A stretch of 64,000 bases of DNA from Acidobacteriota bacterium (lineage in GTDB: Bacteria > Acidobacteriota > Holophagae > Acanthopleuribacterales > Acanthopleuribacteraceae): assembly GCA_020439745.1 (NCBI GenBank), contig JAGQSC010000019.1, forward strand, positions 124,001 to 188,000, given 5' to 3'. Positions 23,892 through 39,693 of the stretch are shown one piece after another (within the stretch, counting starts at the first letter, position 1; the number at the start of each line of letters is the position of its first letter). The notes under the pieces are model-generated. The model saw only the letters and a list, made by a program, of their open reading frames with translations, had not been told where the DNA came from and searched no databases. The translations under genes were made by a program, and so were the position numbers.

Positions 23892-24356
23892 ATGACACGC
23901 ACATTTCAAATTGAGGCCCTCACCAAAGAGACTTTTAATACGGATCAAATGCCCAGTGAATGGGTGATCGCCAAAGGCTATCCAGGCTATCCCTGTAGGG
24001 TCAGCTTGCAAGACGCACAACCGGGCGAACGCGTGCTGCTGGTGCACTACACACACCACGCGGTTTCCACGCCCTACAGGGCGGCAGGCCCCATCTATAT
24101 TCGCGAGCAGGCGGAAAATGCACAGTTCGACCAAGGCGTCTGCCCTCCGTTCTTTCAAGGACGTCAACTATCCATGCGCGCCTACACGCACAAGGGCTAT
24201 CTGGCCAATGCACGTGTGTGCGAAGGCGTTGACGCCTCAGATTCCCTGAACAGTCTATTTGAGAACCCCAAGGTCGCTTACGTGCACATTCACTTCGCAG
24301 CGCCCGGTTGTTACTGCTGCACGGCCGTCCCCGTGGAGGCAGGTGTACCCGCCTGA
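23892..24356 (+). CDS. DUF1203-family protein
   Basis: The 154-residue product matches the DUF1203 pattern: KGYPGYPCRVSLQDAQPGERVLL, HHAVSTPYRAAGPIYIRE, and a C-terminal half with VAYVHIHFAAPGCYCCTAVPV. No function is established for the family. AGGAGG lies 5 nt before the ATG. Several Cys and His residues near the end (HIHF, CYCC) may bind metal, which is speculation. Its last 46 nt overlap the convergent histidine kinase gene, the longest such overlap in the window. Confidence 0.8.
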   Translation: MTRTFQIEALTKETFNTDQMPSEWVIAKGYPGYPCRVSLQDAQPGERVLLVHYTHHAVSTPYRAAGPIYIREQAENAQFDQGVCPPFFQGRQLSMRAYTHKGYLANARVCEGVDASDSLNSLFENPKVAYVHIHFAAPGCYCCTAVPVEAGVPA

Positions 24357-27300
24357 TCAGTGACCACCAATGGAATGCGCAGAACCGCGCACGCACCCTT
24401 ACCCAAACCATCACTGATCAAAGTGAGGGATCCGCCCATCTCGGTCATGGCGTTGGCCGCTGTATGCAAGCCATAGCCATGACCTTTTTCCTTTGTGGTG
24501 TAACCAAAGGTGAAAATCTGTCTCAATGAATCGCTGTCGATTCCGCAGCCGTTATCGGTGAATTTAATCATGACAAACCCGTCACCTGTGGATCGAACTT
24601 CAATATCGAGACGTTTTGGTAGATTGCGTTCGACGTTACACTCCAATGCGTCCTTAGCATTCTCGATCAAGTTGACAACGACATTCACAATTTTGGTTTT
24701 GGTCACTTGACAGGGTTCCTGAATCAGACCGTCCACATTGACTTCGATGCCGTGTCGTTCAAGAGATACATGCATCAACGAAAGCACCTCATTAATGATC
24801 TCGGCAGGCGTCATGGATTCGGCCAGAAATCCTGTTTGTGCATAGTCGTGCTGAACCTCAATGATTTCACGCATCATTTGTACGGCCCCCATGAGCTGCT
24901 CCAGTTCTCCTTCTACCGAGCGCTGCTCCTTGGCCAATTCATCGGCAAGCGTCTCGTAAAAGCGGATGAGGGACTTCCCTTTAGGATGGGCATCCAGTTG
25001 GTCTTCCATTTCCTTGAGCATGTCATTCGCCTTCTTCAGACGGGGCAGGTTGGATTGCGTGACCAATCTCCGAGCCTGATCAACACAGATATTCGTTGAA
25101 TTGAGGATGTTACCCACGTTATGCAGGACACCTGTCGCGATTTCGGCCATGCCAGCACGGTGCGCGGTTTCCACCAGCTTCTTCTGGGTCTCTTCGAGGT
25201 GGTGCGTCCGCTCCCGCACCAAGCGTTTGAGTTCACGCTCTGTGTGTTTCAGTGCGCGTAGGCGCAAGAAATGGATACTCATTACAAGACCGATCACGCC
25301 AATGGCGTAAAGAATATAGGCCCACCATGTCTTCCAAATAGGTGGCGCAATTCGAAAATGGACCGCTTTCTCCTCAAGATTCCAAACCCCATCGTTATTT
25401 GAACCAATCACTTTGAACGTGTAATTGCCGTGGGGCAGTTGCGTGTAACTGGCAAAATTTCGGGTGCCAGCCTTAACCCAATCCCCATCTACACCCTCCA
25501 GCTGATATGAGAACTCGTTGTTCTTGGGGTACGTAAAATCCAGAGCCGCAAACTCAAAAGTGATGAAGTTAAGGTCGTAACGAAACTCCAATGAACTTCC
25601 ATTCGCCATGGCCTGTTCAAACGGTACCGGATTGCCATGTACTTTCATGGCGGTAATGATGATATTGGGCACATGTTGGTTGTCGACAATCTCATCGGGC
25701 TTGAAGTGATTGAAGCCTGCCAGGCCCCCGAAAAACAACTGTCCATCGGCTGCGTGAAACGATGATCCTTCAAGAAACTCATTGCTTTGAAGACCATCGG
25801 TGATGTCGTAACTCTTAAACGTCTGGGACCTGGTATCCAAGCGGAATAGACCCATATTGGTGCTCACCCAAAGTTCACCTTGTGATCCAGGCTGAATGCC
25901 ATGTACAGGACTCACAGGCACGCCGACTCTTCGGCCAATCCAATCCACGCGGAACGATAAGGGATCCACCGCGTTGAGCCCTTGCGCCGTACCCACCCAT
26001 AAAGTCGCACCATCAAAATAGGCACAACTGACGGAAGCGTGATCCAAAGTTTTGCCCTCGTCACCCTTATCAGACAGTTGCACCAGCTCAGACCCATCGG
26101 CGCTCAGACGCAGTAGACCACGCGTATAGGTACCCAGCCAAGTGGCCCCGTCACCTTCCTCAATGCTTTTGATGCTTCGACTGCTTAAACGCTCTCCATT
26201 AGGCAGCAGTGGATCAATCCATTGAATGCCGTCTTCCCGCTTGTCAAACGCACATAACCCCTGTCTCGTACCCACCCAAATGCGGCCGTCACTATGGGCA
26301 AAGAGGGTCTGGATCGTGTTATCGGACAGTCCCACTTCGCCTGCAGGCGGTTTTACGTATCGTGTGAGTCGTCCAGTTTCGGGATTCAGTCTGTGGAGTC
26401 CACCGTAGTAGGTGCCAATCCAGATTTCGCCGTCCCCGTCTTCAACCAAACACATGACCGATGTGGACGTTCGACTTTGCGCGACGTCGGGGAAAACGGC
26501 CACGTGACGAAAGGTATTGAGGTCGTCACTTACGTCCAGGCCCACATCGGTACCCACCCAAATGCGGTTTTTCCGATCCAACATCAAAGAGTGAACCCGT
26601 TCGCCCGAAATACTGTGTTCAAGGCGCGGGTCGCGTTTGACCAATGCGAATTTGCGCGGCTTGGTATCCATCACATTGAGGCCATCTTGATAGGTGCTGA
26701 TCCAAACCAGTCCCGTGCGGTCCGTGTAGATGTCCAGTACATCGTTGCCCGATAATCCTGCCTGCGACAGAGGATCGCGCTTGGCCTGCCAAGAATCACC
26801 TGTCTCTGGCACGACGCGCCATAGCCCGTCCACTGTACCCACCCAAATATGGCCGCGTTCGTCTTCACGAACCGTATTGATCCAGGCCGTATGTAGCACA
26901 TGATCTGGAGGCAAAAGGTGGGACAGGGGAATCAATCTCCCAGTTTCACTTTCCAACCTATTCAACCCCCGCGTAGTGCCCACCCAAATAGAGCCATCGC
27001 GAGAAGCGCATAAGGACCGAACCTGGTTGTGACTGAGCCCCTGGTCGGTTGAAAGCGAAACGCGGTCTTCATCATCTAAATAGCCAAAAAGGCCCTCATT
27101 CGTACCTACCCAAATTCGACCGAACGCGTCCTCGCACAAGGCTCGAACGTCAAAATCGATACACGTATCGGGGATGGCATTCACTTCATAAAAACGTTGC
27201 TTTTCGACGTCAAAGAAACAAACGCCGCCCTCGTAGGTCCCAATCCACAAGCCGCCATTTGCTGCTTCCAGCAAACAACGTATGTAGTTGGCACTGAGTC

Positions 27301-27691
27301 CCTCGGTTATTTGGGCAAAGAACGGCTCAATTGCCATAGTAATTGGATCGATTCGGTTCAATCCATTCTTGGTTCCCGCCCACAAAAACCCACGGCTGTC
27401 CATGGCAAGGGCCAACACACGATTGTCTGTCAATCCGCCACCTTCAATACTTTGCCGGTAGACCGCAAAACGATATCCGTCGTGTTTGTTCAGCCCATCT
27501 TCAGTACCAAACCACATGAATCCCTGCTGGTCCTGCTTAATGCACCACACTGTGCTTTGCGATAGCCCATCTTCAGAGGTGATATGGCGAAAGTCAGAGA
27601 ATCCTTCTCCCGGCTGCTGCCAGGCAAAAAGGACCAACGTCGTCATCAGGCAGGCGATATTCATTGTGTTAGCTAGGATCTCTATCAGCAT
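24311..27691 (-). CDS. Propeller-sensor hybrid-type histidine kinase (no receiver)
   Basis: This 1126-residue sensor begins with a signal peptide (about residues 10-25; start at the ATG at 27691 or 27664) and about fourteen Reg_prop blade repeats with the pattern (I/V)W(V/I)GT..GL, forming two periplasmic beta-propellers. A Y_Y_Y domain follows (FEFAALDFTYPKNNEFSYQL). A membrane helix at about 787-808 and a coiled linker lead to the dimerisation helix with phosphoacceptor His near 855 in GVLHNVGNILNS. The ATPase domain is intact: N-box VVNLIENAKDAL, G1 FTDNGCGID, GYTTKEKGHGYGLHTA. It should autophosphorylate in response to a periplasmic ligand, perhaps a polysaccharide fragment as in hybrid two-component systems. 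No receiver or DNA-binding domain is fused, so the partner is unknown. Confidence 0.9.
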   Translation of the reverse strand: MLIEILANTMNIACLMTTLVLFAWQQPGEGFSDFRHITSEDGLSQSTVWCIKQDQQGFMWFGTEDGLNKHDGYRFAVYRQSIEGGGLTDNRVLALAMDSRGFLWAGTKNGLNRIDPITMAIEPFFAQITEGLSANYIRCLLEAANGGLWIGTYEGGVCFFDVEKQRFYEVNAIPDTCIDFDVRALCEDAFGRIWVGTNEGLFGYLDDEDRVSLSTDQGLSHNQVRSLCASRDGSIWVGTTRGLNRLESETGRLIPLSHLLPPDHVLHTAWINTVREDERGHIWVGTVDGLWRVVPETGDSWQAKRDPLSQAGLSGNDVLDIYTDRTGLVWISTYQDGLNVMDTKPRKFALVKRDPRLEHSISGERVHSLMLDRKNRIWVGTDVGLDVSDDLNTFRHVAVFPDVAQSRTSTSVMCLVEDGDGEIWIGTYYGGLHRLNPETGRLTRYVKPPAGEVGLSDNTIQTLFAHSDGRIWVGTRQGLCAFDKREDGIQWIDPLLPNGERLSSRSIKSIEEGDGATWLGTYTRGLLRLSADGSELVQLSDKGDEGKTLDHASVSCAYFDGATLWVGTAQGLNAVDPLSFRVDWIGRRVGVPVSPVHGIQPGSQGELWVSTNMGLFRLDTRSQTFKSYDITDGLQSNEFLEGSSFHAADGQLFFGGLAGFNHFKPDEIVDNQHVPNIIITAMKVHGNPVPFEQAMANGSSLEFRYDLNFITFEFAALDFTYPKNNEFSYQLEGVDGDWVKAGTRNFASYTQLPHGNYTFKVIGSNNDGVWNLEEKAVHFRIAPPIWKTWWAYILYAIGVIGLVMSIHFLRLRALKHTERELKRLVRERTHHLEETQKKLVETAHRAGMAEIATGVLHNVGNILNSTNICVDQARRLVTQSNLPRLKKANDMLKEMEDQLDAHPKGKSLIRFYETLADELAKEQRSVEGELEQLMGAVQMMREIIEVQHDYAQTGFLAESMTPAEIINEVLSLMHVSLERHGIEVNVDGLIQEPCQVTKTKIVNVVVNLIENAKDALECNVERNLPKRLDIEVRSTGDGFVMIKFTDNGCGIDSDSLRQIFTFGYTTKEKGHGYGLHTAANAMTEMGGSLTLISDGLGKGACAVLRIPLVVTDQAGTPASTGTAVQQ

Positions 27692-27762: not shown

Positions 27763-27798
27763 GAGGCTCATGATTACCCTGTCTTGGCGGTCCTAATT

Positions 27799-29352
27799 AT
27801 GGCCAAAACCATGCTGTTCTTCTGCTTGACAGGCATGTCCTTCGGACAAGTTTTCTACGTTTCGACGACCGGGTCGAACACAACTGGGTCAGGCAGTATG
27901 GGAAACCCATGGGCTACGATTGAGTTTGCCGTAGAAAACGTCCCTGACCATGCCACGATCTTGGTAGCTGCAGGCCTTTATTCAGGCCGCATACGTTTGG
28001 ACGAACACTTTGTCAACGGAATCGCCATTCAAAGTGATCCGCCCTACTTAGCCCTGTTGCGCCACACCAGTACCGTGCTCACTTGTTTCGATGGATCAGG
28101 GATCACCCTGGAGGGCTTCGACATCGCTCACACGAGTAGTGGCGCGGGCCCACTTGTGATGCAGGTTCAGGGCGCAAATACTGAGCGGCTCATCATCCGT
28201 AACAACATCTTTCACGACAGTTACAACAACGATTTGTTGAAAATCAATAACGGATGTCGCGATGTTCTGGTGGAAGGCAATGTGTTTTATAACCAGTCGG
28301 GCTCCGACGAACACATCGACATCAATGGCGTTGTCAATGTGGAAGTCCGCGACAATATTTTCTTCAATGATTTCGTCGGCAGTGGTCGCGTCAACAACAA
28401 CAATACGAGCAGTTACATCGTCATCAAGAACTCGGGCGGGTTACCGCAAAACGAACAGTTCCATGTTCACCGAAACATCTTCCTCAATTGGGAAGGCTCT
28501 TCAGGATCCAATTTTTTGTTGTTTGGTGAGGACGGGCATGGTTTCTACGAAGCCCGCGACGCATTGGTAGAGAACAACCTCTTCATAGGTAACTCGAGCA
28601 ACAACATGCGGGCTTGTTTTGGCGTTAAGGGGTGCCGTGAAATCACCTTCCGCAATAACACGGTAGTTGGTGACCTGCCCTCGCTGGCGTTTGCCATGCG
28701 CTTAAACCGCGAAGGCTCCAATCTGATCAATGAAGAAATCTATTTCTACAACAACATCTGGTCAGACCCAACTGGCACCATGGGTGCTGAGTTTGGCACC
28801 AGCAACAATGACTTCTCTGACACGCCCCCAGCCGACACCAACACCTTTGCCATCGACAACAATCTCTACTGGAACAACGGATCCGCCATCCCGTTCCAGG
28901 CAGGTGAACTGGTGAACTACACCGACGACAGCAACCGCATTGAAGGTAACCCAATGTTACCAATCCACGCGGGGATTGTACTTCCCCGGTGGGATCCCCT
29001 CGCCATGCAGTTCCTCAGTGGAAACCTCAGCATTCGCAGTGAATTTGAACGGCTCGCACAACTAGCGGCAATTGCCGCTGGTAGTTTCGCCATTGATGTC
29101 GCCAATCCCACTCAAAGTCCAGTAGACGACATCTTAGGTGAGAACCGCGGACCATCGCCAGATATCGGTGCATTTGAATCGAATCCCTGTATGTTAATCG
29201 GAGACTTGGACAGCGACTCCGACGTGGATTTCGATGATCTTCTCTTGCTTTTGCCAAACTGGAGGCAAAGTACGTATGATTTGGATGGCGATGGCACGGT
29301 AACTATTCTGGATGGCGCCTTATTAATCCAGTCATTTGGTAGCTGTCCTTAA
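27799..29352 (+). CDS. Secreted right-handed parallel beta-helix protein with dockerin-like tail
   Basis: After a signal peptide (MAKTMLFFCLTGMSFGQ) the 517-residue protein opens with YVSTTGSNTTGSGSMGNPWATIEFA, the usual start of right-handed beta-helix polysaccharide-binding or lyase-like proteins. It continues with many Asn-rich turns (IIRNNIFHDS, LVEGNVFYN, EVRDNIFFND, LVENNLFIGN). The last 50 residues contain two calcium-loop repeats, GDLDSDSDVDFDDLLLLL and DLDGDGTVTILDGALL, as in dockerin-type modules. It could bind or cleave an extracellular polysaccharide; no catalytic set is identifiable. The start is the ATG at 27799. It lies between a propeller kinase and a propeller-kinase transcription-factor-like protein. 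Its TAA stop is shared with the convergent gene through TTAA. Confidence 0.8.
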   Translation: MAKTMLFFCLTGMSFGQVFYVSTTGSNTTGSGSMGNPWATIEFAVENVPDHATILVAAGLYSGRIRLDEHFVNGIAIQSDPPYLALLRHTSTVLTCFDGSGITLEGFDIAHTSSGAGPLVMQVQGANTERLIIRNNIFHDSYNNDLLKINNGCRDVLVEGNVFYNQSGSDEHIDINGVVNVEVRDNIFFNDFVGSGRVNNNNTSSYIVIKNSGGLPQNEQFHVHRNIFLNWEGSSGSNFLLFGEDGHGFYEARDALVENNLFIGNSSNNMRACFGVKGCREITFRNNTVVGDLPSLAFAMRLNREGSNLINEEIYFYNNIWSDPTGTMGAEFGTSNNDFSDTPPADTNTFAIDNNLYWNNGSAIPFQAGELVNYTDDSNRIEGNPMLPIHAGIVLPRWDPLAMQFLSGNLSIRSEFERLAQLAAIAAGSFAIDVANPTQSPVDDILGENRGPSPDIGAFESNPCMLIGDLDSDSDVDFDDLLLLLPNWRQSTYDLDGDGTVTILDGALLIQSFGSCP

Positions 29353-32264
29353 GGGCTAAAAACCGACACCCAGCGATCAAAATCTGGAACCAGTATGAGC
29401 TGTGACGTGGCCGAAACGACTCCGCCCACCATCAATGACCCGTGCCAGTCGTACCAATTGCTGAGACTCGCGCCATCTGGTAGCTGCCACAACACGCGGG
29501 ATTGTGCGGGATTATCCAGCATGAGCGCTACGACGCGTATCCTTCCCTGAACATCCATTTCATCAAACACCAACTCACGGGAATCGGGCGAGAACCTCGG
29601 GCGCATTCCTGCCTTGCCGGCACTTCTGGCCCGATTGATTACGAATCGTTCGTTCACGATGGTTCCATCACGGTCAAGCTCGGCAACGTGAAGGCTTTGC
29701 GTGGTGGATGAGCGAATCACGGCTGCCAGGAATCGGCCGTCTGCCGAAATCGACGGATTAACACCTTCCATGCATCTCTTCATCTCTCCGGTATTTAGGG
29801 TCATCCTAAACACCTCTTCCACGCCATCGCGGTCCGTCACCCAATAAATCGACTTGCCATCGGGATGCCAAACTGGTTGAAAGTCGTTGGCCATATCTTG
29901 TGTCAAGGGACGCGCATTCGATCCATCCACACCAGCAATCCACAAATCGCTCTGCGTCTCGGAAACGCTGGAATAGGCGAGACGATCTCCTTCGGGCGAC
30001 CACGCCGGATTGCACGACGCCACACCCGTGGCAATAGCAGGATAGGTCGATCCATCCCGCAAGTCCAATACCCAGATCTCGTAGTTACGCGTCAAATAGG
30101 CCAGTCGTTCGCCTGTGGGGTCAAATCTCGGTTGAGAACATTCAAAACGATCCACCAGTGCCGGAATTCGCGGATCCGGTTCTTCAGACAGATTCCAAGC
30201 CATCAGCCGAGTTGTGACTTGTTCATGACGTACCAACAAATGTGCTCGAGATTGATCCAAGCTTGGACTGCGAAACCGACCGGGAAACGAGAAAACGCGG
30301 GTGAAAGGCTGGTGCCGTGGCCCGCTGAGCACCAAATTGGGTCCCAAACCATCTGCCTCCAGAACGCTCCAAACTACGGAGCCGTCGCCAGCCACGGCCA
30401 AACCACGACCGCACCATCCCGCCACTTGCGCGATGGTCGTCAAGTCACCCTTTTCATTGACACGAAAAAGCGAAGCATGATGGTATCCATCCGTGCGCGA
30501 CAAGATAAGTTCATCTTTGTCAAAGGCCAAACCGTATGGTTCGTCAGCTCCTTCAAGGACCAACCACTCGGTCCGATCGGTTCCGTCCCGATTCACGACG
30601 ATCAAGACGTTCTTATGGTCTCGCTGATCAAAGCAGGCCACCTTGGTGCCATCGCTTGAAACAGCGGGCCACCAGCCCGACGTGATCCGACGGGGAGAAC
30701 CCCCCGACCAGGGCACTTCGAATATGGCAGCATGCTGCTCGGCATCCACTGCATCAAAAAAGAGGAACTCACCGCGAGGATCCGTCGCAAGGTTACCCAC
30801 AAGTTCGCGGTCCAAGATCCTACGGGACTCGCCAGGTCCAATCGGAGCAACCCATATTCCGGGCTGGTTCACCTTCGAATACGCGAACATGGAGACATCA
30901 GGCGCCAATACAGAGTAATTGGTTTCCTGAGCCAGAATTCGCATGTTTGCCTGGGGCGGTTCCGTTTGCTTTAATCCCGCCACCAAAAGGCCAAGCCACA
31001 ATCCGATGGCAAGCAAGCCCAGCCCTATCAAAGGACGAACCCAGGAAAAACTATGTTCAGGAGTATCTTCAAGGTCCAATAACACATCGCGTGCATGGTG
31101 GTACCGACGGTTTCGGTCCGAATTCAAGCAACGCACCAGTACTTGGGAAAAGGCGCGTGCCGATGTCGGCAATAAAGACGGGTCAAATTCAAAGCACATT
31201 AACGATGCCAATTGTTCGTGCATGGGTCCTGCCCGAAATAGAGGCTTGTGGCAAATCATCTCGAAAAAAACGGCGCCAAACGAAAAGATATCCGCCCGAA
31301 TATCCACGGCTAGGTTTTCAAGTTGTTCAGGTGCAAGGTAACCGGGTGTGCCGACGAATACACCCTCGCGGGTGAGGTTTGGTGTGTCGTCAGATTCATG
31401 GGTAACCTGTGGGCTTGGGGTCAAATCAGCTGCCAACTTGGCCAACCCTAAATCAAGAATTTTGATGTGGCCCTCATCAGTCACCATGATGTTTTCCGGC
31501 TTGATATCCCGATGCACGATGCCTCTATCGTGGGCAACCGCCAGGCCTTCCAACAATTGCCTTGCCAACGAAAGCGCTTCGCTTGTTGAAGGTCGATGGC
31601 GTTTCAACCAGGTACGGAGTGTTTCGCCCTTGACCATTTCCATCACCAGGAAAGGCACCAATGTGGGGTTTTCTGGCGGCCAATACCCCTCACCTACTTC
31701 GTAGATTTGCGCAATACATGGGTGATTGAAGGCTGCTAGTGCTACCATCTCCCGTTTGAAGCGCAGTTGGGTATCTTCCAGAATGGAAGGGCTTCGAAAT
31801 GTCTTAATAGCCACATCGCGGTTGAGTTTGGTGTCTCGAGCCTTCCAAACTGACGCCATACCCCCGCTCCCAATCAGACACTCCATCTCGAAACGGTCTA
31901 ATCGGTAGGTAGACAGGGTCGTGTTAGGGTGTGTCACGGGGACGACCTCGCGCCCTTCCTCTATTTCAAATACCCATTTGTAACCTTTCTTGGGAAAGTT
32001 CTGAATGAACCGTTCGTCGCGTGCACTACTTCCCAGATGGGTTCGTAGTTCTCGAATTGCTTGGAACAACACTTGATCGGAAACTGCCGTTTCGGCCCAA
32101 ACACGCTCCATAATGATCGACTTGGTAAGCAGATTGCCACGGTTTTCCAGAAACAAGGCAAGAAGATGCGCCACTTTCGGTCGCATCTCGACAACCTGAC
32201 CATCTCCCTGCAGCTCTCCCGTATGGCTATCGAAGACAAATTCACCAAAACGGTAGAGGGCCAC
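29349..32264 (-). CDS. Winged-helix / Ser-Thr kinase / TolB-propeller fusion
   Basis: Residues 1-103 are an OmpR/CadC-type winged helix (YRFGEFVFDSHTGEL, FLENRGNLLTKSIIMERVW, FIQNFPKKGYKWVFEIE). Residues 124-400 are a Hanks kinase with GSGGMASVWK (132-141), Lys154, HRDIKPEN (251-258) and DLG (271-273) in place of DFG. A membrane helix lies at about 409-430, followed by some 530 residues of PD40/TolB-like propeller blades (TDPRGEFLFFD, WWPAVSSDGTKVACF, PAWSPEGDRLAYSS, RPRFSPDSRELVFDE). One chain could therefore bind DNA, phosphorylate proteins and sense the periplasm, as known in acidobacterial genomes. The start is the GTG at 32264. The target promoter is unknown. Confidence 0.9.
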   Translation of the reverse strand: MALYRFGEFVFDSHTGELQGDGQVVEMRPKVAHLLALFLENRGNLLTKSIIMERVWAETAVSDQVLFQAIRELRTHLGSSARDERFIQNFPKKGYKWVFEIEEGREVVPVTHPNTTLSTYRLDRFEMECLIGSGGMASVWKARDTKLNRDVAIKTFRSPSILEDTQLRFKREMVALAAFNHPCIAQIYEVGEGYWPPENPTLVPFLVMEMVKGETLRTWLKRHRPSTSEALSLARQLLEGLAVAHDRGIVHRDIKPENIMVTDEGHIKILDLGLAKLAADLTPSPQVTHESDDTPNLTREGVFVGTPGYLAPEQLENLAVDIRADIFSFGAVFFEMICHKPLFRAGPMHEQLASLMCFEFDPSLLPTSARAFSQVLVRCLNSDRNRRYHHARDVLLDLEDTPEHSFSWVRPLIGLGLLAIGLWLGLLVAGLKQTEPPQANMRILAQETNYSVLAPDVSMFAYSKVNQPGIWVAPIGPGESRRILDRELVGNLATDPRGEFLFFDAVDAEQHAAIFEVPWSGGSPRRITSGWWPAVSSDGTKVACFDQRDHKNVLIVVNRDGTDRTEWLVLEGADEPYGLAFDKDELILSRTDGYHHASLFRVNEKGDLTTIAQVAGWCGRGLAVAGDGSVVWSVLEADGLGPNLVLSGPRHQPFTRVFSFPGRFRSPSLDQSRAHLLVRHEQVTTRLMAWNLSEEPDPRIPALVDRFECSQPRFDPTGERLAYLTRNYEIWVLDLRDGSTYPAIATGVASCNPAWSPEGDRLAYSSVSETQSDLWIAGVDGSNARPLTQDMANDFQPVWHPDGKSIYWVTDRDGVEEVFRMTLNTGEMKRCMEGVNPSISADGRFLAAVIRSSTTQSLHVAELDRDGTIVNERFVINRARSAGKAGMRPRFSPDSRELVFDEMDVQGRIRVVALMLDNPAQSRVLWQLPDGASLSNWYDWHGSLMVGGVVSATSQLILVPDFDRWVSVFSP

Positions 32265-33093: not shown

Positions 33094-33610
33094 AAGCGAA
33101 CTGGTCAAGCAGTCGCAAAAGGGCGACGCAACTGCTTTCATGCAGTTGATTGAACGGCATGACCACCGCATTATGTCGGTGGTCCACCGTTTCACTTTTG
33201 ACCAGTTCGATCGCGATGATATCTACCAGGAAGTCTTCCTGGCCGCATTCAAGAATGTCCGTCGCTTTCGAGGTGATTGTGCCTTTGCAACCTGGTTGCT
33301 GCGCATTGCGCTCAATCGCTGCATCGATCTGGAGCGGAAACGCAAGAAAGAGCGTTGGCTGGAACTGCCCAGCCAGGCTATTGATCCCCAACAATCACAA
33401 AAACTGGCAAGCGTGTATCGGGCCCTTCGCCACCTGGCGAAAGGCCCTCGAACCTGCTTCCAACTCCACTATCTGGAAGGTATGACCGTCGAAGAAATCG
33501 CGGATTTGCTGTCATGTCGGTCCGGAACTGTAAAGAGCCAGTTGAATCGAGCAAGGAAACAAATCCGCCAACACGATGAGGTGCAACAATGGATCCAGGC
33601 AACCGCTTAA
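33083..33610 (+). CDS. ECF-type RNA polymerase sigma factor
   Basis: The 175-residue protein has a sigma-70 region 2 (QKGDATAFMQLIERHDHRI, FDRDDIYQEVFLAAFKNVRRF, FATWLLRIALNRCIDLERKR) and region 4 (LHYLEGMTVEEIADLLSCRSGTVKSQLNRARKQI) with the helix-turn-helix. That is the minimal ECF layout. The ATG at 33083 lies inside the 3' end of the THKG-repeat gene, and the 3' end overlaps the next membrane-protein gene by 22 nt, so the three are coupled. ECF factors are normally held by a membrane anti-sigma, for which the downstream protein is the obvious candidate. Target promoters cannot be named. Confidence 0.93.
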   Translation: MLAESELVKQSQKGDATAFMQLIERHDHRIMSVVHRFTFDQFDRDDIYQEVFLAAFKNVRRFRGDCAFATWLLRIALNRCIDLERKRKKERWLELPSQAIDPQQSQKLASVYRALRHLAKGPRTCFQLHYLEGMTVEEIADLLSCRSGTVKSQLNRARKQIRQHDEVQQWIQATA

Positions 33611-34122
33611 GAGACACAATCGTAACCACAGAGGAAGAATTGGTTCAGCGCCGTCAAGCGCTTGCCCGAAAATTGATCCATGCGCCCAATCCTCAGCGAT
33701 TTTGGCCATTCGCAGTGCCAGTGTTGGCCGCCGCCCTGGCCTTGATGATCTTATTTTGGCCAGCAGCTTCGCTTGACCGCGCAGACATTGATACGCTCAA
33801 CGCATTCTTGTCGGAAAATCAGGCTGAAACGGTGCGCATCCAGGCGCACAAGCTAATCAATTCCGGGTCATTTACCGCACAAACCAATGGCCACTACCTG
33901 ATGGCCATGAGCCAACCCAACGGTCAAGGACTGGGTGCTTTGCTGGCCGCTCTGGAGGCTCAGCCACCCTATCCCTATCGACAGATCTACCTGGAACGAT
34001 TAATCGATCTATCTGATTCTTACCGACTTGGCGATGATTTGCTGGATCATTGGGTAGATCTGGAGACAGATCCCTTGTGCATGGATTTGCTGGAAGTGCT
34101 GGTCACCGCGAATTCAGGTTGA
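33589..34122 (+). CDS. Single-span membrane protein, candidate anti-sigma factor
   Basis: This 177-residue protein has a roughly 40-residue cytoplasmic part rich in Arg/Glu (TTEEELVQRRQALARKL), one membrane helix (about 44-62: FAVPVLAAALALMILFW), and a roughly 110-residue periplasmic helical domain. The topology is that of an anti-sigma factor, but I see no zinc-binding HxxxCxxC anti-sigma motif, so it may be an atypical or unrelated regulator. Its start overlaps the sigma gene by 22 nt, which supports a functional pairing. Confidence 0.6.
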   Translation: MDPGNRLRDTIVTTEEELVQRRQALARKLIHAPNPQRFWPFAVPVLAAALALMILFWPAASLDRADIDTLNAFLSENQAETVRIQAHKLINSGSFTAQTNGHYLMAMSQPNGQGLGALLAALEAQPPYPYRQIYLERLIDLSDSYRLGDDLLDHWVDLETDPLCMDLLEVLVTANSG

Positions 34123-34147: not shown

Positions 34148-37100
34148 TCAATGAAGAGAGACTTGATCAGGTTTTTCCAAGAACGTTTCCTGACCACCAT
34201 GTGGTAACCAGATCTTGAGTTCGTAACGCGACCCCTTCTTCTCGGCACGAATCTTTCCTCCCACCTCTTGAATCAGATTGGCTGATTCATGCATGTCGAT
34301 ATGCGCTTGGCTGGAGTAGACATCATGGTACTGAGTAAACAGGTGCTGCAGTGCCGATCCACTTAGGCTTGGCGCTGAACCCGAAATACAAATGGCGGGC
34401 GCCGGGTTTTCTCCCACGTGAATCGTCACGGGATCGTCTGCATGGCCGTCCAAAGACCATTTCAAAAAGGTGGTCAGTGCTTTCTTCAAATGGTAACGGG
34501 GAATTTCGACAACCTTATGATCGTCACACACAATTTGCAGGCGTTCTACGTCGGTTGCAGTGGTGACCTCCGTTCGAATCTCGTTGAGAAGGGTACACAA
34601 ATTCACGCGCTGCTGGAGTAGCGGCATTGCGGCCATATTCTCCTGGTCTTTGATGGCATCGCACAAAGTTTGAACAGAAAGTTCCAGATCTCTCAGTTCG
34701 TGGAGTGCCGCATCGGTGCGTTTTCCTTGGATACCCGTGAATCGACGCAAGGCAGCAACAATCGTTTCAATTGTCGCTGTATCTGAATTACGTTCTAGTC
34801 GGTCCACCAGCCTATGAATAAACGCCACTTCCGAAGGGTCCCCTGCTTTTTCCTTTAGTTCCTGGACGGACACCTGCAGGCTATTCAAGGTGTTGCCGAT
34901 GCGGTGTAGAGATTGCCGCGCCTGTTGTGCCATTCCGGCAACATGGGCGGACTCCACCAGTTGTTCCTGTAAGTTCACCAGTTCCCGATTGGCTTGCCGC
35001 AGAGACTGGGTGCGTTTGCTGATCTCCAGCTCGAGGACACGTTTGCGCTTCCTGATGGCACGAATACGCATACGGCCAATCCAAATAGAAACCAAAACAC
35101 ACATCACCAAAAAGCCAATTTGAAACAAACTGGTTTCCCACCAAGCCTGTCGCACCACAAACGGAAAATGCGCAACCTGCTTTGAAGGACGACCCAATGC
35201 GTCCAGCGTTCGTAACTCAAACACGTATTTGCCAGAACCTAGTTTGGCAAAAACCACACGAGGCGACTCCTGTGATTCAGACCACTGTTGGTCGGCACCA
35301 ACTAATCGGTATTGAAACGGCACACGTCCTCTCAAGTGGATGGCGTGGAAGTCGATGGTCAAATCGGGTTCATGGGCCAGCGTTTGGCCGGGACTTATTT
35401 CCTTTCCGTTCACGCGGATGGCATCAATGACAGGTACAGGTTCTCGGTTATGAGCACGTTCCAAGAATGGGATGTAACGGCTCAAGCCTTTGCCACAACC
35501 AAACCACAGTCCATTGTTCTTGTCCCGAGCGATGGCTGTGGCTGTGGCTTCAAGCCCAGCAATCCCATCGTCCAAATCAAAGTTAAACCATTGGCCTGCA
35601 GGAGTCCTCAAACTGATGCCTTGGTTATGGGCCAGCCATAGCGCATCCTGGTGGGCCATCACTTGCCACACAAAGTTGTTCTTAAGGCCTTGTTCTTTAT
35701 CCATAATATCCACGGACTCGCCATCCACACAAACCACACCCAATCCGTTGGTTGCCCACCAGATTCGGTCCCGCTCATCGCAATAGATGGACCAGGCCGT
35801 GGCAGGGGCAAGTGCGGAAAAATCGCGGGTTTCTCCCGAATCTGGATCAAAAGAGATGACACCATTTGAGGTGGCTATCCACAATTTTCCGTGACTATCT
35901 TCAGTGAACGCGACCACGTTTCTGCCTTTGAGTCCGATCTCCACAGTTTCGTATGAACCGTCTCGATGCCAGAGCGTCAATTGACTATGGCCAATCCATC
36001 TTCTGCCGCGCTTGTCCACATACACGGATTGCATGGGAAAATTGGGGCCTTCGTCTTTTGAAATGGTCCGCAATTGGGAACCATCCCATACATAAAGCCC
36101 TTCAGCGGTTGCAAATAAAACGGTGCCATCGGTGTCCTGGCTGATGCCGTAAACCGAAGGCTTCATGCGTGGATCCGGCTGTATGAACACGCCCTTGTCT
36201 TCATAGGCAATACCAGCCCGAGTCCCGATCCAGACACGGTTTGTGGCGTCTACATAAATGGCACGAACCACAGGGCTTGGCAGGCCATCAGCTAATCCAA
36301 ATCGCTGAAAAGGACCCGGTAAGTAGACAGCCAGTGAGTCCACGGTGGCTATCCAAAGGTTTTGTTCTTCGTCCAGAAGAACATCACCAATGTCGTCACT
36401 GGGCAGGCCATGTTGCGTGGTGATGTGTATCCAATAGGTTTGATGGCGCAACCAAATGCCATTTTGTGCACCAATCCACAGGTTCCCATTTGGCGAAGCC
36501 ACGCATGCGTTCACCAGCAGATCTTCATCCGGAAATGGAATCAAATCTTGTGATTGGCTGTCCCATACTCCATCCGGAGTCACCAACATCACTTCGGCTG
36601 CTCCTCGGACCAAGGCAAACGCACGTAATCCCCTGGGAATTGTCACAGGCTCCCAGTTGGATCCACGGCGAACCAGCACCCCTTCGGGCGCAAAATACGC
36701 GACACGACCGTCGCGCAAAGACACAAGATCAGAATCAAAAGACTGATCATAGGTGAAGATACTCGTGCTTTGATTGCCAGTCAGTTCCAGAAGCCCGACC
36801 GACGTGGCCACAAAAGTACGGCCATCCACAGTCACCATAGCCCTCGGATTGGCATCCGGCAAGATATGGGTCCATTGCCCATCATCTCTACTCCAGACCC
36901 CCCCGTCTTGATAACCTATCAGCGGAGTACCGTCTGTTTTCAAACAAATACAAGATGTTTTGGCAGCTTGCATACCGATCGGACTGCCGTAATCCTTCCA
37001 ATTGACACCATCAAATCGCGTCAATCCGGCATAGGTCGCCACCCACAAATAACCCGAATCATCGAGATAAATCGCCAATGGCTGGCTTTGCGGCATACCG

Positions 37101-37180
37101 TCGCGTACAGAAAATGCCTTGAAATTGAGCTGCTGGGCCATGCCCAACCAACACGCCATCCATATGCCACAAATGCGCAC
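34148..37180 (-). CDS. Propeller sensor with degenerate histidine kinase domain
   Basis: The 1010-residue protein has a signal peptide (MRICGIWMACWLGMAQQ, GTG start), about twelve Reg_prop blades (LWVATYAGLTRFDGVNW, LWIGAQNGIWLR, VWIGTRAGIAYED), a Y_Y_Y domain (DFHAIHLRGRVPFQYRLVG), and a membrane helix near 690. The coiled helix pair retains a phosphoacceptor-like His near 758 (SLHRIGNTLNS). The ATP-binding domain is decayed: the N-box position reads ALTTFLKWSLDG with no Asn, the G1 position reads CISGSAPSLSG with no DxG, and the G2 region reads IDMHESANLI. It probably cannot bind ATP. It may act as a receptor or phosphotransfer partner for another kinase, such as the intact propeller kinase at 24.3-27.7 kb. 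Confidence 0.85.
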   Translation of the reverse strand: MRICGIWMACWLGMAQQLNFKAFSVRDGMPQSQPLAIYLDDSGYLWVATYAGLTRFDGVNWKDYGSPIGMQAAKTSCICLKTDGTPLIGYQDGGVWSRDDGQWTHILPDANPRAMVTVDGRTFVATSVGLLELTGNQSTSIFTYDQSFDSDLVSLRDGRVAYFAPEGVLVRRGSNWEPVTIPRGLRAFALVRGAAEVMLVTPDGVWDSQSQDLIPFPDEDLLVNACVASPNGNLWIGAQNGIWLRHQTYWIHITTQHGLPSDDIGDVLLDEEQNLWIATVDSLAVYLPGPFQRFGLADGLPSPVVRAIYVDATNRVWIGTRAGIAYEDKGVFIQPDPRMKPSVYGISQDTDGTVLFATAEGLYVWDGSQLRTISKDEGPNFPMQSVYVDKRGRRWIGHSQLTLWHRDGSYETVEIGLKGRNVVAFTEDSHGKLWIATSNGVISFDPDSGETRDFSALAPATAWSIYCDERDRIWWATNGLGVVCVDGESVDIMDKEQGLKNNFVWQVMAHQDALWLAHNQGISLRTPAGQWFNFDLDDGIAGLEATATAIARDKNNGLWFGCGKGLSRYIPFLERAHNREPVPVIDAIRVNGKEISPGQTLAHEPDLTIDFHAIHLRGRVPFQYRLVGADQQWSESQESPRVVFAKLGSGKYVFELRTLDALGRPSKQVAHFPFVVRQAWWETSLFQIGFLVMCVLVSIWIGRMRIRAIRKRKRVLELEISKRTQSLRQANRELVNLQEQLVESAHVAGMAQQARQSLHRIGNTLNSLQVSVQELKEKAGDPSEVAFIHRLVDRLERNSDTATIETIVAALRRFTGIQGKRTDAALHELRDLELSVQTLCDAIKDQENMAAMPLLQQRVNLCTLLNEIRTEVTTATDVERLQIVCDDHKVVEIPRYHLKKALTTFLKWSLDGHADDPVTIHVGENPAPAICISGSAPSLSGSALQHLFTQYHDVYSSQAHIDMHESANLIQEVGGKIRAEKKGSRYELKIWLPHGGQETFLEKPDQVSLH

Positions 37181-37620
37181 CTAGAACCGCCCATGACGAC
37201 AAACCGTTTTGTTCACAATCTGCATTCAATTTCGAGAAGATGCCACTTTTGATCTGATTGGCAAGACAGTACCAAGAGACCCGGTGCGCTCCTCGCATGA
37301 CCATAGGACAAACACCTACCCAACTCGTCGCTCTGGGACTCAAACGCTAAGCCATCATTGCCAGACGACCATTGATGACGGCATCGCTATTCGCGCATGA
37401 GCGCTTGGTACGGATGAAATGGGTTGGCCAGCAGTCTGGATAGGATTGCATACTTCTGCCAACACCAACGCAGCAAGGACCCCCTCCCACTGAAAGGTAA
37501 TCCACTTCAAGTCAATATTTGGATTTTCTAGAAATTGAGTACCGTGCAGCGATTCGTTCTTTAGTTGTAGTGTAAATAGCCGATAATGTGACTAAGGAAC
37601 GATGTAACCTCGGGGTCGTA
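37181..37620. other. Divergent intergenic region, 440 nt
   Basis: This stretch lies between the degenerate propeller sensor (leftward) and the REC-PAS-GGDEF-EAL gene (rightward). Short open frames within it have no ribosome site and no recognisable product. There is no good TTGACA/TATAAT pair. A GGGG lies 5 nt before the GTG at 37621. The region has scattered GGACAAAC and GGGACTCAAACGCTAAGCC segments that loosely recall a c-di-GMP riboswitch but do not fit its consensus. It is long enough for a regulatory RNA or multiple operators, but nothing firm is visible. Confidence 0.4.
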
Positions 37621-39693
37621 GTGTCACCAAAACGAATACTCATTGTGGATGACAATGAGTTAAACAGAGAGATCTTGTACCATCACCTAAGTGCCGCTGG
37701 ATACAACGCGGTCACTGCTGACAGCGGTTTGGAAGCCATTCGCTTAGCGGACGAGAAACGGGTCGATTTGATGCTGTTGGACGTGATGATGCCCGAGATG
37801 GACGGATTCGAAACCCTGCATCGCATCCGCGAGAAACACCCGCTTTCGGAATTGCCGGTGATCATGATCACCGCTCTGTCACAGAGCAAAGACATTATCA
37901 AAGCGCTTTCCATGGGTGCCAACGATTACATTGCCAAGCCTATTGACACCGCTGTAGCTTTGGCGCGCATTCGAACGCAGCTCCACCTGCTTGAATCGGA
38001 ACAGGCTCTCAGGGAAAGCCAGGAACGCTATGCCCTGGCTTCTGAAGGAGCCAATGACGGCCTGTGGGACTGGAATCTGAAAACCCAAGAAATTTACCTT
38101 TCGCCGCGCTGGAAAGCCATGATGGGGTTTTCAGACGAACATGTTTGCGATGCAGATGCCAGTTGGTTCGAACGCATACACCCCGATGATCGCGCCCGTG
38201 TACAATCCGACTTGCGCCGGCACTTAGAAGGTGAATGTGAGAATTTTGCCTCCGAATACCGCATCCTTCATGCAGAAGGTACCTACATCTGGGTATTTTG
38301 TAGGGGACTAGCGGTTCGCGACGCCCAGGGTACACCTTACCGAATGGCCGGTTCACAAACGGACATCACCAACCACGGCATGCACGACGCATTGACTGGG
38401 CTGCCCAAACGGTCGCTGTTCCTTCACAGTCTCACGCGGGCGGTAAATCACCAAGGCAAGTTCGACGCGCACTACGCGGTACTCTATTTGGATCTGGACC
38501 GATTCAAGATGATCAACGACAACTTCGGCCACCAGGTGGGTGACGATGTGCTGATTGAGGTCGGTCGACGCCTGGACGCCTGTATTGATGCGCGCGATAC
38601 ACTGGCCCGATTGGAAGGCGACGATTTCGCGATATTACATCGAGAGATGCCAGAATTGGACGATGCGTTGGCCCTGGCACACAAGATCCAAGCCCATATC
38701 GCCGAGCCGCAGCATGTCAATGGTCGCGACATAGCCATGGAAGTAAGCATAGGCATAGCCTACGGAGGGTCTCATGGTGATGATGCGGAAGTCCTATTGC
38801 GCAACGCACATATCGCTCTTTTCCACGCCAAGAAGATGGGTAGCGGCTCCATCAACATCTATGATGCCGAGATGCATCAAGAGGCAGTCCGCCGTCTTAG
38901 GCTGGAATCCAACTTGCGCAAGGCGGTCCGCAACTGCGATTTCAGTCTTTGTTTTCAGCCACAGGTTGAACTGAAGACGCGAGAACTAACCGGTCTCGAA
39001 GCCTTGATTCGTTGGACGGACCCCGAGTTGGGCGTTGTCCCACCTTCTGATTTCATTCCTGCAGCCGAAGAATTGGGCCTGATTGGATCCATTGGAGACT
39101 GGGTTCTTGAGCAGGTGATATCGGAAGCCAAGCGTTGGCAAGCCGAAGGACTGGATCCGATTAGAGTTGCCATCAATATCTCACCCAAGCAATTCTCGCA
39201 ATTCGATATGGTGGATCGATTGTCACATGTCCTCAGCAAACACGCTTTTGAACCCAAATACCTTGAAATCGAAATCACGGAATCAGTATTGATGGATCAC
39301 AGCGATCTTGCGGTAGAAACCTTAAATGCCATTCACCGCATGGGATGTCGCATCAGTATTGACGACTTCGGAACAGGCTACTCGTCGCTTGGTTACCTTA
39401 AGAGGTTTCCGATTGACTGCATCAAGATCGACCGTTCGTTTGTTCGAGAGATCAATGTAAACCCGGACGATGCCGCCATTACCTCGGCCATCGTAGCCAT
39501 TGCGCACAACCTGAAGATGTGCGTCATCGCAGAAGGTGTTGAGCACGAAGATCATGTGCAACACCTTCTGGACATTGGTTGCGAGGAGGCCCAGGGCAAT
39601 TACTTCGCCTCACCACTTACTGCCATTGAGACGCGCCGTTTCTTAGCGAACCTGAAGCAGCAATCAACGAACAACATGCGAGTTGTCGGCTGA
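37621..39693 (+). CDS. Response regulator with PAS, degenerate GGDEF and EAL domains
   Basis: The receiver domain (about 1-120) has the acidic pair DD (10-11) and phosphoacceptor Asp54 in LLDVMMPEMDG. A PAS domain (about 135-250: LWDWNLKTQEIYLSPRW, WVFCRGLAV) is followed by GGDEF (about 255-420; DLDRFKMINDNFGHQVGDD) whose signature reads LEGDDF instead of GGDEF. The EAL domain (about 430-680) keeps EALIRW, INISPKQF, EIEITES, DDFGTGYSSL, KIDRSF and AEGVEHEDH. The likely activity is therefore phosphorylation-controlled c-di-GMP hydrolysis, with the GGDEF part perhaps a GTP-binding regulator. The start is the GTG at 37621 behind GGGG; a GTG at 37588 would add 11 residues. The 3' end overlaps the convergent transglutaminase gene by 30 nt. 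Confidence 0.92.
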   Translation: MSPKRILIVDDNELNREILYHHLSAAGYNAVTADSGLEAIRLADEKRVDLMLLDVMMPEMDGFETLHRIREKHPLSELPVIMITALSQSKDIIKALSMGANDYIAKPIDTAVALARIRTQLHLLESEQALRESQERYALASEGANDGLWDWNLKTQEIYLSPRWKAMMGFSDEHVCDADASWFERIHPDDRARVQSDLRRHLEGECENFASEYRILHAEGTYIWVFCRGLAVRDAQGTPYRMAGSQTDITNHGMHDALTGLPKRSLFLHSLTRAVNHQGKFDAHYAVLYLDLDRFKMINDNFGHQVGDDVLIEVGRRLDACIDARDTLARLEGDDFAILHREMPELDDALALAHKIQAHIAEPQHVNGRDIAMEVSIGIAYGGSHGDDAEVLLRNAHIALFHAKKMGSGSINIYDAEMHQEAVRRLRLESNLRKAVRNCDFSLCFQPQVELKTRELTGLEALIRWTDPELGVVPPSDFIPAAEELGLIGSIGDWVLEQVISEAKRWQAEGLDPIRVAINISPKQFSQFDMVDRLSHVLSKHAFEPKYLEIEITESVLMDHSDLAVETLNAIHRMGCRISIDDFGTGYSSLGYLKRFPIDCIKIDRSFVREINVNPDDAAITSAIVAIAHNLKMCVIAEGVEHEDHVQHLLDIGCEEAQGNYFASPLTAIETRRFLANLKQQSTNNMRVVG

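Follow-up and report, generated by a model that had tools for sequence, protein, structure and literature searches.

A putative pseudo-histidine-kinase with a propeller sensor, a preserved phosphoacceptor helix and a degenerate ATP site

The window, a 64,000-nucleotide stretch of a 5.1-Mb genome (G000, contig C63, positions 124001–188000), encodes a propeller sensor whose reading frame starts with GTG and contains no internal stop (Table 1). A signal-like start, a Reg_prop propeller (E 2.8e-30; 100.9 bits, cut-off 20.4), a Y_Y_Y domain (30.5 bits, cut-off 26.6), a probable transmembrane helix, a long helix and a C-terminal kinase-like domain follow one another, and Reg_prop repeats that precede a Y_Y_Y domain, both above the Pfam cut-offs, identify a two-component propeller sensor. 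In the hybrid two-component systems of Bacteroides, the kinase is followed by a receiver and an AraC-type DNA-binding domain. Pfam detected neither of them here (no match to Response_reg), and the protein terminates after its CA-like domain.

Table 1. Features of the propeller-sensor gene and of other genes in the window (window positions).
Feature	Position	Strand	Basis
Propeller-sensor putative pseudokinase, 1010 aa	34148..37180	(-)	ORF, Pfam, profile match
N-terminal hydrophobic stretch, residues 1-17, signal-peptide-like	37130..37180	(-)	by eye, without predictor
Reg_prop propeller region, about residues 17-575, limits approximate	35456..37132	(-)	Pfam Reg_prop, 5 stretches
Y_Y_Y domain, residues 619-676	35153..35326	(-)	Pfam PF07495, E 3.3e-7
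Probable transmembrane helix, residues 684-702	35075..35131	(-)	by eye
H-box SLHRIGNTLNS, residues 757-767, His759 and Asn763 retained	34880..34912	(-)	profile alignment
Former N-box, residues 904-913, Trp908 in place of Asn	34442..34471	(-)	profile alignment
Former G1 box, residues 933-940, DxGxG replaced by GxAxS	34361..34384	(-)	profile alignment
Former F/G2 region, residues 947-969, F retained, G2 glycines replaced by His960 and Asp962	34274..34342	(-)	profile alignment
Intact propeller kinase, same C-terminal family, 1126 aa, proposed partner	24311..27691	(-)	HATPase_c 1e-15; motifs intact
REC-PAS-GGDEF-EAL protein, 701 aa, divergent neighbor, candidate receiver only	37588..39693	(+)	Pfam; link not conserved
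OmpR-type DNA-binding domain + Ser/Thr kinase + PD40 propeller, in G000-only block	29349..32264	(-)	Pfam

The earlier note had described a sensor that keeps its H-box but lacks the ATP-binding residues, and the alignment of the C-terminal domain that it proposed bears this description out. The Pfam scan that recovers HATPase_c (PF02518) in the intact kinase at 24.3–27.7 kb returned no match to it in this protein even at E ≤ 10; a profile built from the C-terminal domains of 18 relatives covers nearly the whole domain (142 bits, residues 693–984). In the profile alignment, the H-box reads RQSLHRIGNTLNS and retains His759, which aligns with the phosphoacceptor histidine of 115 intact relatives, whereas the N-box reads TFLKWSLDG (the Asn replaced by Trp908), G1 reads ISGSAPSL (D934G, G936A and G938S), and G2 reads QAHIDMH (G960H and G962D). 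Lacking the N, G1 and G2 residues of an ATP-dependent histidine kinase, the protein, judged by its motifs, cannot be an ordinary autokinase.

The losses are concentrated in the CA domain. Among the columns conserved at ≥75% identity in the 115 intact relatives, the protein retains 14 of 16 in the DHp domain but only 5 of 25 in the CA domain (Fisher p = 2.8e-5); its nearest intact paralogues keep 13–15 and 19–24, respectively. The two lost DHp columns are a Glu replaced by Gln at H-7 and an Asn replaced by Arg at H+1, which may affect phosphotransfer. The phosphoacceptor His (100% in the 115 relatives, a set chosen for this residue) is present, as is Asn763 at H+4 (column 71; the Asn likewise 100%). 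On this sequence pattern, the protein is a pseudokinase and not a product of random decay, and the preservation of its phosphoacceptor helix makes a role that relies on the phosphate of another kinase likely.

The CA domain is predicted to retain a Bergerat/GHKL-like fold. An AlphaFold2 model based on a five-row alignment (the pseudokinase and four intact relatives) has a mean pLDDT of 70.2, compared with 70.3 for a control with the same rows but the intact window kinase in first place, and is thus as confident as the control. Its CA part matches the catalytic domain of ThkA (Z 18.8, rmsd 2.2, 142 residues), and the whole core matches RetS (Z 17.5) and DivL (Z 17.4) equally well, as matches within 1 Z count as tied; the four intact kinases in the alignment may bias the model toward an intact fold. 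Of 25 hydrophobic CA columns, 19 are kept (background 0.39, p = 2e-4).

The closest full-length relatives among the matches listed share 32% identity and all have intact ATP sites (G000:C59:79482–82424, and G001:C35:71178–74144 and G001:C4:24618–27554 in the genus mate G001). The pseudokinase probably derives from the subfamily of the C59 kinase and has since lost its ATP binding. Conservation of the degenerate form in relatives, which the earlier note had proposed as a check, could not be demonstrated, because searches of 61 relatives (best ≤13 candidates per genome), of 396 phylum genomes (E ≤ 1e-90, best ≤2 candidates per genome) and of GTDB contigs (six loci) yielded no orthologue and no full-length match closer than 32%. 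In G001, the matches to the flanking regions 27784–29352 and 37588–39693 (63% and 68% identity) adjoin each other, which indicates that an 8-kb block comprising the pseudokinase, an ECF sigma gene and a Ser/Thr kinase is missing there. At E ≤ 1e-100, nothing in G001, G003 or G005 matches the Ser/Thr kinase, a fusion with an OmpR-type DNA-binding domain and a PD40 propeller; among these four genomes, it is matched in G000 alone.

Degenerate histidine kinases have so far been single cases (RetS, PhyT, Spo0B, DivL); here, they make up 18 of 127 domains among the matches listed from four genomes and occur in all possible forms. The family was defined as domains with an LHNVGN-like H-box, and degenerate members as those without the His or without two or more of N, G1 and G2. 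It comprises 20 domains in G000, 22 in G001, at least 43 in G003 and at least 42 in G005, the last two being lower bounds drawn from the best 150 of 288 and the best 150 of 232 candidates (44 domains of G003 were classified and 43 entered the final count, which omits two weak full-length matches of 105.7 and 92.4 bits). From G004 and G006, a sample of seven domains each was taken, and G002 lies outside the classification. Eight domains with one changed G2 glycine (four each in G003 and G005) were counted as not degenerate; such changes (e.g., GHGFSLH) occur in otherwise intact kinases and are common to G003 and G005 in at least two cases.

Within G000, 3 of the 20 domains keep the His but have lost the ATP site (the pseudokinase and those on C27 and C33), one retains the ATP site without the His (C60:232213), and one has lost both (C8). 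Proteins that keep only the ATP site also lack the Asn at H+4 and would therefore be neither acceptors nor phosphatases. Several degenerate forms recur between species, namely C60 with G001:C8:730945 (DHp 63%, CA 67%), C8 with G001:C22 (79% and 74%), G003:3805797 with G005:C45 (43% and 53%), G003:11029150 with G005:C54 (52% and 69%), joined by G006:C24, and G003:5509433 with G005:C52:29908 (52% and 48%); the last is of the His-kept, ATP-lost form, as is a weak match between C27 and G001:C4:355182 (38% and 19%). A FastTree tree requires at least three changes for the His and six for the ATP site, a rough guide in view of its long branches. Kinases of this bacterial family appear to break repeatedly, and the broken ones to be retained, often beside intact ones. 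The C8 protein (L097:5329–6297) and its counterpart G001:C22:287190–288032 are small membrane proteins without His and ATP site that are 74–79% identical.

The matches listed from the four genomes include eight pairs of family domains whose starts lie less than 4 kb apart (L098:4690–11161 on G000:C60, L170, L171, L173, L236, L244, L249 and L251). In all eight, both genes lie on one strand, the intact one first and the degenerate one second. Genome-wise shuffling of the labels rendered all eight pairs mixed in 0 of 20,000 cases, although the pairs represent only about four lineages and are not independent. In several of them (G000:C60, G001:C39, G005:C45), the reading frames share a few bases if each is extended to its first possible start codon, which suggests coupled translation. 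A comparable intact-first, His-less-second arrangement, with the genes about 8 kb apart, is found in G003, G005 and G006. The consistent pairing of intact with degenerate genes supports heteromeric split kinases in general, and split pairs of propeller kinases probably exist in this family. Nevertheless, the second gene has lost both sites in two of the eight pairs, which argues against a simple split-kinase story, and several degenerate members are not near any family member (including the acceptor-only G000:C27 and C33, and G005:C20 and C30). No description of paired propeller kinases of this kind was found in the titles and abstract openings listed from the PubMed Central open set; the intact-first, broken-second rule would open heteromeric histidine kinases with two inputs to direct testing.

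The split-kinase idea of the earlier note thus gains ground for the family, but the pseudokinase itself is in no such pair: it has no same-strand intact partner directly upstream, and the genes on either side (33589–34122 and 37588–39693, both on the forward strand) do not encode histidine kinases. That note had likened the H-box of the partner that it named, the intact kinase at 24.3–27.7 kb (VLHNVGNILNS), to SLHRIGNTLNS. This likeness holds only as a family motif; the nearest relatives of the pseudokinase lie elsewhere (C59 and G001). The two proteins are 23% identical, and their DHp domains share 23%, compared with 35% for the C59 kinase. The proposed partner lies downstream, 9.9 kb away by its kinase domain and separated by opposite-strand genes, whereas the degenerate gene comes second in all adjacent pairs; by rough arithmetic, about 8% of members would lie this near another family member by chance. 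Distance, order, intervening genes and DHp identity all disfavor this partnership. Whether the proximity is conserved cannot be demonstrated, because nothing closer than the 32% paralogues was recovered from the 396 phylum genomes at E ≤ 1e-90.

The divergent REC-PAS-GGDEF-EAL gene was considered as a source of the cognate receiver, and its partnership with the pseudokinase was set aside because the neighborhood is not conserved. In G001, the 68% orthologue stands without a comparable neighbor, and the windows around its best homologues in G003–G006 contain no gene matching the pseudokinase, although one G003 window (L168) contains a family kinase. The pairing had its appeal because a related protein (42% identical) is encoded near the acceptor-only kinase at G000:C33.

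Known systems illustrate what a sensor without an ATP site may still do. Passages of PMC5992135 describe RetS of Pseudomonas aeruginosa as having a degenerate HATPase domain without G-boxes and no autophosphorylation but a retained phosphatase activity of the H-box, which implies that a degenerate HATPase domain is compatible with active phosphatase chemistry. The pseudokinase resembles RetS in its degenerate HATPase domain and retained H-box; the H+4 residue to which phosphatase activity is attributed is Thr in RetS and Asn in the pseudokinase, although this assignment comes from HisKA-type proteins and is extended to the present family by inference. Whereas RetS, as portrayed there, combines receiver domains with a HisKA-type HExxT motif, the pseudokinase has an HRIGN H-box, propeller input and no receiver that could take the phosphate. 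A second parallel is PhyT/PhyP of Sphingomonas melonis, which sections of PMC5898713 present as a membrane protein that transfers phosphate and combines a putative periplasmic sensor with an HRxxN motif in its DHp domain and a degenerate ATPase domain; PhyP, however, belongs to an alphaproteobacterial general stress system, and the shared HRxxN motif may be due to chance, as most relatives of the pseudokinase have HNxxN. The same source names Spo0B and ChpT as degenerate histidine kinases (PMC5898713). They are dimeric His phosphotransfer proteins that originated from histidine kinases by degeneration, as the pseudokinase would be. Spo0B and ChpT are soluble and have no sensor, in contrast to the large periplasmic sensor encoded here. 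DivL of Caulobacter is likewise a pseudokinase with a preserved core fold. It lacks the phosphoacceptor His and thus corresponds to the His-less class among the relatives rather than to the pseudokinase itself.

By analogy, we tentatively favor a function as a ligand-gated transmitter phosphatase or phosphotransferase of the RetS or PhyT type that operates on the phosphate of other kinases, because the DHp domain is the sole conserved output and has kept the His as well as the Asn at H+4. The protein would be a membrane-anchored pseudo-histidine-kinase in which a ligand bound to the periplasmic propeller may alter the DHp four-helix bundle. It could then act without ATP, either by removing phosphate from a receiver domain, as RetS does, or by carrying phosphate between receivers via His759, in the manner of PhyT and Spo0B. 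Against this function speak the homologues of the adjacent candidate receiver, which occur without a comparable neighbor, as well as the lack of an orthologue in the searches above, the Arg at H+1 and the possible bias of the structural model.

The main rival is a plausible one, namely trans-phosphorylation in a mixed dimer, in which an ATP-competent paralogue would phosphorylate His759 and two propellers would read two ligands; for this protein, we consider it rather doubtful. Complementary broken forms within G000, the uniform order and overlapping frames of the adjacent pairs, and the C59 kinase as the closest ATP-competent DHp domain among those compared all speak for it, but the isolated position of the pseudokinase, the distant, downstream location of the 24.3–27.7 kb kinase and its dissimilar DHp domain do not, and identities of 23–35% between DHp domains render mixed dimers uncertain. 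Its plausibility derives from the family-wide pairs, as the immediate context of the pseudokinase offers no partner. Blocking the autophosphorylation of a bound kinase, for which His759 would be dispensable, is one of three mechanisms listed for RetS in the relevant passages of PMC5992135. The conservation of two lineages that have lost both sites (74–79% between G000:C8 and G001:C22) implies that a role without His or ATP site exists, yet such proteins keep only 8–10 of the 16 DHp columns, compared with 14 in the pseudokinase, which makes an allosteric decoy improbable here.

Even less probable is a decaying pseudogene or a relaxed duplicate without present function. Such an origin would agree with the long branch (1.57 changes per column in the FastTree tree), the missing orthologues and the location in a block absent from the syntenic site of the genus mate. 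However, 1010 codons have stayed open, the H-box is intact, and the hydrophobic core is retained; when all divergence is placed on the pseudokinase, neutral drift to 17–25% identity leaves a stop-free frame in only 0–0.4% of simulations.

The protein serves as a test of the acceptor-only case, i.e., of whether a sensor without an ATP site still controls the flow of phosphate. As a pseudo-histidine-kinase, it is ordinary in kind but unusual in its setting, a family of propeller sensors with repeated kinase breakage. It is conceivable, though unlikely, that these propeller kinases are mix-and-match heteromers in which complete kinases pair with broken ones, either acceptor-only or ATP-site-only, and that the pseudokinase is an unpaired acceptor-only subunit through whose propeller a second ligand gates the phosphate output of several kinases within one cell.

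At G000:C33 (L096:6714–9689) and G001:C19 (L161:7850–10903), a different type of propeller sensor combines a HisKA helix with a receiver and lacks an ATPase domain. In both species, a REC-PAS-GGDEF-EAL gene comes after it, and in G000, the divergent gene at its side is the acceptor-only kinase (L096:5175–6644). In the REC-PAS-GGDEF-EAL homologue of this locus (L096:9697–11808), the GGDEF motif reads ESSQF and the receiver, judged by eye, lacks the usual acidic pair; it is perhaps a phosphodiesterase only.
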